64,000 nucleotides of DNA from contig JACDEE010000009.1 in assembly GCA_013816585.1 (NCBI GenBank), forward strand, positions 1 through 64,000, written 5' to 3'. This stretch comes from Sphingosinicella sp. (GTDB taxonomy: Bacteria > Pseudomonadota > Alphaproteobacteria > Sphingomonadales > Sphingomonadaceae). The position numbers and the translations under genes were made by a program. Below are positions 18,979-20,281 of this stretch, in pieces; position 1 is the first letter of the stretch; the number at the start of each line of letters is the position of its first letter. The notes under the pieces are model-generated. The model was not told the DNA's origin and did no database searches. It saw only the letters and a list, made by a program, of their open reading frames with translations.

Positions 18979-19455
18979 ATGATAAATCCCGCGAGCGTCA
19001 ATGCCGTTGCAAGCATCATCCAGCTTTCGATCGCGCCCGTATTCCTGCTCGCCGGGATCGCTGGGATATTGAATGTACTCGCAGCGCGGCTGGCGCGGAT
19101 CGTCGACCGCGCGCGCAATCTGGAATCCGACGTTCCCACCGCCGATGCGCTGGTTCAGGAAGCTGAATTGAAGGAATTGGTGATACTCGACCGCCGGATG
19201 ACCATGGCGCATTGGGCGATCGGGCTCTGCACGTTCGCGGCCTTGCTGGTCTGCCTCGTGGTCATGTTGATGTTCGTGGCGGTGATCAGCGCACTTCAGT
19301 TCGCCGTGCCAGTATCCTTGCTGTTCATCGCCGCAATGGCGAGCGTGACCTTGGGGCTAATGCTCTTTCTGGCCGAAGTGACGATCGCCACGCGCTGGGT
19401 TCGGGTCAGCGAGCAATTCGTGCTGAAGGGCAAGCCCCGCTACGGATCGGAATGA
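18979..19455 (+). CDS. DUF2721 membrane protein
   Basis: The 158-residue protein has three hydrophobic helices (about residues 10-35, 78-107 and 110-134) with a charged loop LAARLARIVDRARNLE after the first, the pattern of the DUF2721 family. It probably sits in the inner membrane. The role is unknown. It starts 84 bases from the divergent lipoprotein gene. Confidence 0.85.
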   Translation: MINPASVNAVASIIQLSIAPVFLLAGIAGILNVLAARLARIVDRARNLESDVPTADALVQEAELKELVILDRRMTMAHWAIGLCTFAALLVCLVVMLMFVAVISALQFAVPVSLLFIAAMASVTLGLMLFLAEVTIATRWVRVSEQFVLKGKPRYGSE

Positions 19456-19472: not shown

Positions 19473-19507
19473 AAAAAAGAAGGACCGCCGGACTTTCGTC
19501 CAGCGGC
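19473..19507 (-). terminator. Rho-independent terminator of the 18-codon unit
   Basis: On the - strand GCCGCTGGAC-GAAA-GTCCGGCGGT forms a 10-base-pair stem with a GNRA loop, followed by CCTTCTTTTTT. It ends a transcript that would start near 19647. Confidence 0.85.
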
Positions 19508-19561
19508 CCTCCCGACATGGTCAGCGGCCGGATGGCTCCAGCCCGGGAGACCTTAGAAAGC

Positions 19562-19618
19562 CTAGGCTTTCATCCCCCGAACGAGCAGAACCGACCTCTG
19601 TGCTGAACCATGAGACAT
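19562..19618 (-). CDS. Putative 18-residue protein with a perfect Shine-Dalgarno
   Basis: The frame MSHGSAQRSVLLVRGMKA starts at ATG 19618 and stops with TAG at 19564-19562. It is preceded by AAAGGAGGTGATCC, the full complement of the 16S rRNA 3' end, with 7 bases between GGAGG and ATG. A sigma-70-like promoter (19654-19682) lies upstream and a strong terminator (19473-19507) downstream, so the frame has all parts of a separate gene. The stop codon lies inside the palindrome GAAAGCCTAGGCTTTC (19556-19571). No homologue is recognised. It could also be the coding part of a dual-function small RNA. Confidence 0.55.
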   Translation of the reverse strand: MSHGSAQRSVLLVRGMKA

Positions 19619-19620
19619 CG

Positions 19621-19634
19621 GATCACCTCCTTTC
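19621..19634 (-). promoter_or_regulatory. Ribosome binding site matching the whole anti-Shine-Dalgarno
   Basis: The - strand reads AAAGGAGGTGATCC, a 14-base perfect complement of the bacterial 16S 3' terminus. It decides the start of the 18-codon frame. The flanking bases do not match 16S rRNA, so this is not a rRNA fragment. Confidence 0.75.
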
Positions 19635-19653
19635 GCTTGTTGAAGAGACCCCG

Positions 19654-19682
19654 ACTATGAGTCGCAGCGAATCGACGATCAA
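19654..19682 (-). promoter_or_regulatory. Possible sigma-70 promoter of the 18-codon unit
   Basis: On the - strand TTGATC (19682-19677), 17 bases, CATAGT (19659-19654) matches the -35 and -10 boxes at 4 of 6 positions each. The predicted start is near 19647, about 13 bases before the ribosome site. Confidence 0.4.
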
Positions 19683-19724
19683 GTCTTGTATTCATTTATT
19701 TTCTGGCTAAGATTTCATGCTTCG

Positions 19725-19751
19725 CGCCGGCCCCGGGGGACCGGCGTTTTT
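19725..19751 (+). terminator. Rho-independent terminator facing the + strand
   Basis: CGCCGG-CCCCGGGGGA-CCGGCG followed by TTTTT and ATTT. It would end + strand transcripts from the DUF2721 gene or from an unrecognised + strand RNA running opposite the 18-codon unit. Confidence 0.75.
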
Positions 19752-19753
19752 AT

Positions 19754-20281
19754 TTATCCGCGGCAATCTTCCACCACGCGCGCCGGCTCCGGCCAGGATG
19801 GAACGACCAGCATCGGCAGGCCCTGCGCTTCGATCGTGAAGCGTCCGCGGCTGAATATCATGGAATCCAGGATCGGGTCGTTCGCGGCGACACTGGCGAT
19901 CGCATAAGGCAACGGCTCGCGCTGAATCGTCGCGGGCAGCGACCGGGCGGTGAACGAAGTGCGGACGATCATCACTGGATTCGTCGGCACGCCTTCACGC
20001 CACAAAAAGACCTGCCGGCGCGCTCGGTCGCAGCGAAGAATGAGTTGCGCCTCGCTGTTGGCGGCCCCGAACATTGCCAGGGTTTCAGAGCCTTCGGCGC
20101 GATAATACCAATTCCCCGGGGTCAGGGGGAAATCTCGCCAGTCGCGCGCAGCGGGCGGGGGGGGAGGCAGAGGCAAAGCCGGGCGTTGCGGCGGGGGGGG
20201 TGGAGGAGGTGCCGACCGGGGGACGCAGGCGGCCACCATCAGGAAGCCGCCCGTCAAGAAGATACGCTTTACTCTCATCAT
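19754..20281 (-). CDS. Proline-rich lipoprotein, 175 residues
   Basis: The product has a lipoprotein signal (RIFLTGGFLMVAAC, Cys about residue 19), a Pro-rich linker (PPPPPPPQRPALPLPPPPP) and a folded domain with GNWYYRAEGSETLAMFG and LILRCDRARRQVFLW. The same domain layout is found in the next gene (LFSLRCDDRGGLLLNRHG), so the two are likely paralogues. The start is ATG 20281 or 20278. The role is unknown. Confidence 0.75.
   Translation of the reverse strand: MMRVKRIFLTGGFLMVAACVPRSAPPPPPPPQRPALPLPPPPPAARDWRDFPLTPGNWYYRAEGSETLAMFGAANSEAQLILRCDRARRQVFLWREGVPTNPVMIVRTSFTARSLPATIQREPLPYAIASVAANDPILDSMIFSRGRFTIEAQGLPMLVVPSWPEPARVVEDCRG

Follow-up and report, generated by a model that had tools for sequence, protein, structure and literature searches.

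A small RNA gene of Sphingosinicella with a 15-nt complement of the 16S rRNA tail and an 18-codon reading frame, a candidate 30S-capturing relative of CC2171

We analysed a stretch of 64,000 nucleotides from the genome of Sphingosinicella sp. (contig JACDEE010000009.1), which is called the window here. On its minus strand, at 19683-19478, lies a small RNA gene that is made up of a leader with a complement of the 16S rRNA tail, an open reading frame (ORF) of 18 codons and an intrinsic terminator (Table 1). The original prediction of a compact gene with leader, ORF, stop codon and terminator is borne out, the feature being larger than was claimed. The terminator with a GNRA loop is there, the loop being GAAA, and in the terminator scan of the locus 0.7 terminator-like sites are expected by chance in that stretch. 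The promoter that had been claimed stands in part: the scan of the locus found no sigma-70 consensus, and the element CTTG-N16-GACTCA is present and conserved. Searches for tRNA and tmRNA found none, and across the window no match to an Rfam family attains the gathering score of that family.

Table 1. Features of the small RNA gene and of its neighbours in the window
Feature	Position	Strand	Basis or remark
Promoter element CTTG-N16-GACTCA	19658..19683	-	conserved in relatives
GANTC (CcrM methylation) sites	19663-19659 and 19673-19669	-	in the promoter element
Leader CAACAA motif	19637..19642	-	similar leaders in class-wide relatives (by eye, unscored)
15-nt complement of the free 16S 3' tail, SD core inside	19620..19634	-	genome's own 16S ends
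18-codon ORF MSHGSAQRSVLLVRGMKA, ATG at 19618, stop TAG	19562..19618	-	frame length kept in relatives
Long hairpin, codons 3-18 as ascending arm, descending arm ending GCTGACCATG	19516..19612	-	predicted fold
Intrinsic terminator, GAAA loop and T run	19478..19513	-	terminator scan
Lipoprotein-like proline-rich ORF, no Pfam match	19754-20281	-	upstream of the RNA gene
DUF2721 gene, convergent with the RNA gene	18979-19455	+	downstream side

The complement in the leader, GAAAGGAGGTGATCC, pairs perfectly with the 3' ends of the genome's own 16S rRNAs, GGATCACCTCCTTTCT, and one G separates it from the ATG. The perfect complement that had been described is real and exceptional, and its length of 14 nt is to be corrected to 15 nt. 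In the whole genome, the exact 14-mer AAAGGAGGTGATCC is present at this locus only, apart from its occurrence antisense to two 16S 3' ends. The computed energy of the duplex between the RNA leader and the 16S tail is -29.9 kcal/mol, as compared with a best value of -14.7 kcal/mol, a median of -7.6 kcal/mol and a longest perfect run of 7 nt for the 49 non-overlapping window ORFs of at least 150 aa, a set of reading frames rather than of curated genes.

A scan of 385 genomes of the class (Alphaproteobacteria), in which the 5-nt spacer between GAAAGGAGGTG and DTGTC was left unconstrained, gave 77 sites in 75 genomes from 44 families, the genomes being partly related and hence not independent. The spacer reads A63/G14 at position 1, T76/C1 at position 2, C77 at position 3 and C62/T9/G4/A2 at position 4, while position 5 varies (A39, G25, C7, T6). 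Positions 1-4 complement the 16S tail, with wobble pairs kept by G at position 1 and by T at position 4; thus all the 77 sites extend the SD toward the start as 16S complement, 70 of them with no broken pair and seven with one. Position 5 faces the foot of helix 45 of the 16S rRNA, up to which the complement extends. A stricter pattern for the leader and start was found in 50 of 86 genomes of the class versus none of 213 other Pseudomonadota genomes, and a reversed control pattern had no match. The comparison thus indicates that the extension of the SD as 16S complement is conserved across the class, with the bias that the SD core is part of the models and patterns by which the class loci were found, and that some of the patterns also demand DTGTC. 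A plain coincidence of a strong ribosome-binding site was rejected, since the spacer past the SD core is kept as 16S complement with position 5 free, and no long ORF of the window (n=49) comes near the duplex energy of the leader.

In the same genus, blastn with the 221-base region found the locus in all 24 genomes at 75-89% identity, with the block GCGAAAGGAGGTGATCCGATGTCTCATGGTTCAGC unchanged in the 24 loci; outside the family, the same search at E 0.001 gave no match in the 16 genomes from the rest of the order. When named genomes were scanned with a pattern, at least 119 stretches were returned, mostly from Sphingomonadales genera by title, and the rest, among the matches listed, belong to broad-titled MAGs and to Candidatus Phycosocius. 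Moreover, 27 stretches of viral contigs (L310-L336) have the leader-start pattern.

In a permissive Rfam search (271 bases against 4227 families), the window RNA matched RF01867 (CC2171, a Caulobacter sRNA) with 57 bits and an E value of 1.7e-11. The match is full-length, covering model positions 1-159 of 159 with the closing helix and the terminator included, and it stays below the gathering cut-off of 75 bits, as does a second copy in the same genome (57.0 and 60.3 bits, respectively); six members of the kind of that second copy score 60-74 bits. Over the class, RF01867 was matched in 85 of the 385 genomes, in 13 of them above the cut-off (at most seven candidates per genome were scored, with stricter filters), and the strict pattern in 84 of the 385, while among 14 control genomes RF01867 matched Caulobacter vibrioides only. 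Within the order, the matches fall in 13 of 60 genomes, all of the organism's own family (13 of its 14), and in none of the 46 genomes of other families. The distribution is thus wide across the class but patchy. We regard the window RNA as a remote homologue of CC2171 that lies below the cut-off, sharing with it the leader, the start TGTCTCAT, the closing helix and the terminator, as seen in alignments with members of the kind of the second copy. The CC2171 model differs in that its consensus has GUG where the window has AUG and is of the MSHC peptide type, and in that the family is filed as an sRNA, with no ORF mentioned in the material consulted.

The second copy is diverged and lies outside the window, at G000:C8:103028-103182 (L002, L032). 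Its ORF is MSHCLMPLAADLLGSASDSGARA, with a peptide that begins MSHC... as against MSHGSA... in the window copy, and it is preceded by a heat-shock-like promoter, CTTGAAA and then CCCACAT. We call the kind of the window copy family A and that of the second copy family B. Note also that a MAG record titled Candidatus Kuenenia (L082, CALQFM020000040.1) has a family-B copy whose RNA is that of the alphaproteobacterial genome G344, so the title looks wrong. Kinship with CC2171 and the second copy were absent from the original prediction, as were the ORF as a hairpin arm, the GANTC promoter and the conserved upstream gene that are described below.

Some of this family has been recorded before. For M. 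huakuii, PMC5596092 assigns the RNA MH_s33 to RF01867 and gives coordinates for its transcript, and a table of the Rfam 15 paper includes CC2171 among the structures improved with R-scape. According to the passages concerned of Schrader 2014 (PMC4117421), most of 133 Caulobacter ncRNAs are intergenic and ribosome profiling showed their regions to be untranslated, with two earlier ncRNAs being translated, which are not named in that text. The main text of the peptide survey PMC5521070 has neither CC2171 nor Caulobacter. Our literature search found no description of CC2171 as coding, as having an ORF or as having a complement of the 16S tail, and a search with six forms of the leader-start sequence matched no paper. 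What is new here is the presence of CC2171 relatives in many alphaproteobacterial families, the selected frame and the complement of the whole 16S tail, together with the hairpin arm, the unconserved peptide and the promoters that are treated below.

The reading frame is kept along with the RNA. Its length in family A is 18 codons for 121 of the 136 non-redundant members and lies between 15 and 20 codons overall, and its stop is TAA in 81, TGA in 34 and TAG in 21 of the 136; in family B, 22 of 23 copies have an ORF of 17-25 codons. The original prediction had named relatives that conserve the RNA and not the frame as the observation that would speak against it, and the relatives keep both, with the one exception of L034 among the 23 family-B copies, where the frame meets no stop codon over the stretch read and the ORF accordingly seems to have been lost or shifted. 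At 48 distinct sites of the class (the listed SD-pattern matches with loci given), frame 0 gives an ORF of 14-35 codons in 47 (interquartile range 23-26), as compared with closure at 14-35 codons in 18 of 47 and 13 of 48 sites for the other two frames. Of 68 loci taken from the class-wide RF01867 matches, 67 have an SD and an NTG start (ATG, GTG and TTG being allowed) at the expected place; the remaining one, L249, was set aside as a false match. A frame and stop conserved in this way are left unexplained if the RNA acts through its complement on 16S maturation or decay, as a chaperone or a protector of the 3' end, and its translation is incidental. This reading would account for a complement that is kept up to the boundary of the tail and not at the next base, and we consider it very improbable.

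Next, we consider whether the frame is conserved for its product, that is, whether the locus is an ordinary small-protein gene, whose 18-codon peptide would be made at a high level from an unusually strong ribosome-binding site. This agrees with the conservation of frame and stop, with the SD and NTG start at the 67 of 68 loci and with the sites that have a detectable terminator (199 of 262 short-ORF sites), which start with ATG in 154, GTG in 40 and TTG in 5 and have Ser2 in 197 of the 199, figures that are biased as many of the loci were fetched by patterns requiring DTGTC. The stops of these 199 sites are TAA in 97, TGA in 66 and TAG in 36. The base pattern of the codons is against it. Among 95 distinct 18-codon ORFs, the commonest base of codon 7 has frequencies of 0.53, 0.51 and 0.97 at positions 1-3, and the same holds for codons 12, 14 and 15, where the third base is fixed (0.98, 0.97 and 0.94) with the first two varying. 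A fixed third base with varying first two is the reverse of what protein selection gives, and on this ground protein-level conservation was rejected for family A, and the very small protein that had been proposed as the product is not supported. In addition, the peptides differ between types (MSHGSA.., MSHC.., MSSE..), with little shared across the types past Met-Ser, and a start codon that lies 1 nt from a 15-nt duplex would disfavour maximal expression. We therefore consider an ordinary peptide gene to be distinctly unlikely. The apparent selection is on an ORF of this size more than on its product, although Ser2 and the motifs kept within clades in some peptides (TWxxAS-like, EQPS) may leave room for some peptide function.

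The EQPS of the rhizobial-type peptides was discarded as evidence for a protein, because the same bases can form an apical hairpin with a CARC loop, and in another group the CARC bases fall after the stop, as judged by eye. Also by eye, the rhizobial-type members L214, L218, L221, L230, L244 and L254 have the look of an apical G-CARC-C tetraloop, which lies within the ORF (EQP) in some members and just 3' of the stop in L230. In L217 and L261, ORFs of 55-56 codons with signal-peptide-like starts take the place of the short ORF, as though such a small protein for export had taken over the strong leader.

The bases of the ORF find their partners after the stop codon. The window RNA has a fold z of -6.5, with none of 200 shuffles as stable, and the apical loop of the predicted fold holds the stop, both in this RNA and in those most closely related to it. 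Over family A (135 of 136 RNAs scored), on average 75.6% of the bases in codons 3-18 find a partner 3' of the stop, versus 0.5% of the ORF bases from codon 3 that pair with other ORF bases; the stop codon itself is wholly unpaired in 49 of the 135 folds and wholly paired in 28. The ORF of the Sphingomonadales type is thus modelled as the ascending arm of a hairpin. Outside Sphingomonadales (57 of 63 loci scored), the pairing of the ORF with downstream bases is weaker, 0.40 versus 0.21 for shuffled sequences, with a mean z of 1.5.

Two kinds of comparison suggest that the arms co-evolve. For 49 class-wide representatives with different codons 2-4, the mean helix score of an RNA with its own partner segment is 16.1, as compared with 12.7 for permuted partners (sd 0.3, maximum 13.7 of 100), a control that mixes base compositions, and with 13.0 when the 3' segment is shuffled in place (sd 0.4, maximum 13.9 of 100), which gives the same result; without the viral stretches the score is 16.3 versus 13.0 shuffled (n=45). 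As an example of arms that differ between types, family B pairs CATTGTC with GACAATG, and family A pairs CATGGT with ACCATG. An alignment of 36 rows of family A has 34 consensus pairs, 5 of them with two-sided changes; the six consensus pairs drawn around the SD and the start are probably not meaningful. It is also noted that L051, L066, L081, L086 and other Sphingomonas loci have an extra hairpin after the stop (such as GGGGGGTATCCTCCCCC, then TCAACG), and the CCTCC within it could act as a competitor in binding the leader's GGAGG.

Of the 136 family-A loci, 90 have the promoter element CTTG-N16-GANTCA, where shuffled sequences give a mean of 0.3 and a maximum of 2, and so do all the 24 non-redundant same-genus loci, the window's included; one promoter scan used the 133 of the 136 loci that have upstream sequence, and L020 was omitted as redundant with L018. 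It is found in none of 28 family-B, 26 GTG-MSH and 63 other loci. The middle base of the GANTC is A, C or T in family A, and this variation is to be expected of a CcrM site, not of an invariant word. With a GANTC conserved in the promoter, as expected of the GcrA/CcrM type, family A has a candidate GcrA/CcrM-regulated promoter. GcrA binds methylated GANTC sites, for which a subset YGAKTCK is proposed in the relevant part of PMC7987155; the window's upstream site, CGATTCG, fits this subset and its -10 site, CGACTCA, does not. Family B is of another kind, having an RpoH-like promoter in 18 of 28 loci with a laxer pattern (shuffled mean 1.0, maximum 5) and in 8 of 23 with a stricter heat-shock pattern, as compared with 5 of 136 family-A loci versus 4.1 shuffled. 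At the other end of the gene, a strict scan detects a terminator in 7 of 24 same-genus loci, and a laxer scan in the 199 of 262 sites given above.

Upstream of the RNA on the same strand, a lipoprotein-like gene is present in 112 of 121 family-A loci (those with at least 900 nt upstream), from which it follows that family A is syntenic; the nearest such gene is 67 nt from the RNA and the median distance is about 150 nt. The largest neighbour cluster (79 ORFs from 56 loci) includes this gene, which is found at none of 21 family-B and 27 other class loci. The genes on the downstream side vary; a rough motif detects a DUF2721-like one at 3 of the 24 same-genus loci. No conserved co-directional downstream gene was found, and in the window the downstream DUF2721 gene is convergent, in agreement with the original statement that no neighbour fits as a regulated gene. 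By its orientation, an attenuator or leader peptide was rejected in the window. A leader peptide for a neighbouring gene could be argued for from the same-strand branched-chain-aminotransferase-like gene that lies downstream in 21 of 226 loci (by eye), but the conserved neighbour of family A is upstream, and it is absent from family B and from the other class loci, so that we regard this reading as scarcely credible.

On the plus strand, a hairpin can be read at about 19725-19751, with TTTTTATTTAT after it (within 19725-19757); the strict terminator scan, requiring a stem of at least 7 pairs, missed this hairpin. An antisense terminator was found in 1 of 24 same-genus loci with the same 7-pair minimum, which misses the weaker hairpin of the window. 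The antisense transcript carrying an anti-SD sequence that had been suggested is thus left unsupported, with the scan being blind to the window hairpin too. The mRNA of DUF2721 could run to the plus-strand hairpin and so be antisense to the RNA.

Alternatively, the RNA may be a trans-acting sRNA, either plain or of dual function, for which the 3' end of the upstream mRNA could be a further source. The descending arm or the apical loop would then pair with target mRNAs, and the main use of the ORF and the strong SD would be in the stability or the timing of the RNA. The family is classed as an sRNA by Rfam, the RNA has a terminator and a promoter-like element of its own, the descending arm CCGCTGACCATG is strongly conserved in family A, and the lipoprotein-like gene upstream makes processing from an mRNA possible; as the family-A promoter element lies between that gene and the RNA, the gene leaves our estimate as it was. 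However, the conservation of the arm is explained by its pairing with the ORF, and the arms change together between the types, unlike a seed for pairing with targets. The extended 16S complement, moreover, is left unexplained. We thus take the sRNA reading to be rather unlikely. The dual-function RNA of the original prediction is plausible insofar as the comparison finds an apparently conserved frame on a small candidate transcript; it is the small protein as product that finds no support.

We prefer to a peptide gene a regulatory RNA that captures 30S subunits and is gated by translation. In this model, to which we give about an even chance, the RNA is a structured one of the CC2171 kind and at the same time a regulatory mini-mRNA in which translation and folding are mutually exclusive. 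The model builds on the complement with its conservation, on the constraint on the frame and on the predicted hairpin with its co-variation; from these we infer that the RNA is transcribed here, that its ORF is translated, and that in the cell it pairs with the full tail and excludes folding by translation and vice versa. The leader would pair with the whole single-stranded 16S 3' tail and would hold the 30S subunit tighter than ordinary mRNAs do. With the start codon 1 nt past the complement and the hairpin beginning one codon later, a competition is implied: the 30S subunit would dock by its tail, and initiation would cost the start-proximal pairs with the rRNA. Translation of the short ORF would then melt the ascending arm and release the descending arm, while without translation the RNA would fold shut on itself. 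The function would lie in this either/or of fold and translation and not in the peptide, and the RNA would report or buffer how many 30S subunits are free or initiating. The regulatory output would be its form, closed or opened, which would act through the stability of the RNA, through sequestering 30S subunits or through exposing the descending arm. As a more tentative extension, which we consider possible rather than probable, the genome would have an RNA sensor or buffer of the 30S pool in two copies, one of the CcrM type and one of the heat-shock type, with each switched by the translation of its own arm.

It is useful to compare this RNA with known systems. The rnTrpL/peTrpL of S. meliloti, as described in PMC10117765, is also a small RNA with an ORF of 14-15 codons, and E. 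coli Spot 42 is a similar dual-function case going by a reference title in that paper. Those two are reported to be functional from experiments, and the window RNA differs from them in that its ORF is predicted to be a hairpin arm and its leader complements the 16S tail to the end. In S. aureus, the part of PMC13009471 on initiation complexes describes extended SD helices, with the SD pairing extending toward the start and G:U accepted for A:U; about 30% of initiation sites are estimated there to use the extended pairing, and bS21 would hinder the extension in E. coli. The extended SD of S. aureus has a longer spacing, by contrast with the 15 nt and the 1-nt gap to the start of the window RNA, and it occurs at many sites, whereas here it belongs to one kind of gene with one or two copies per genome.

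With these results, a family recorded in Rfam just as an sRNA of Caulobacter gains relatives in many families of Alphaproteobacteria. If the RNA acts on 30S subunits, the cell cycle and heat stress would be coupled to the supply of ribosomes in a new way, and if the model is true, the ribosome pool would be under an RNA-based control that works through the anti-Shine-Dalgarno tail.
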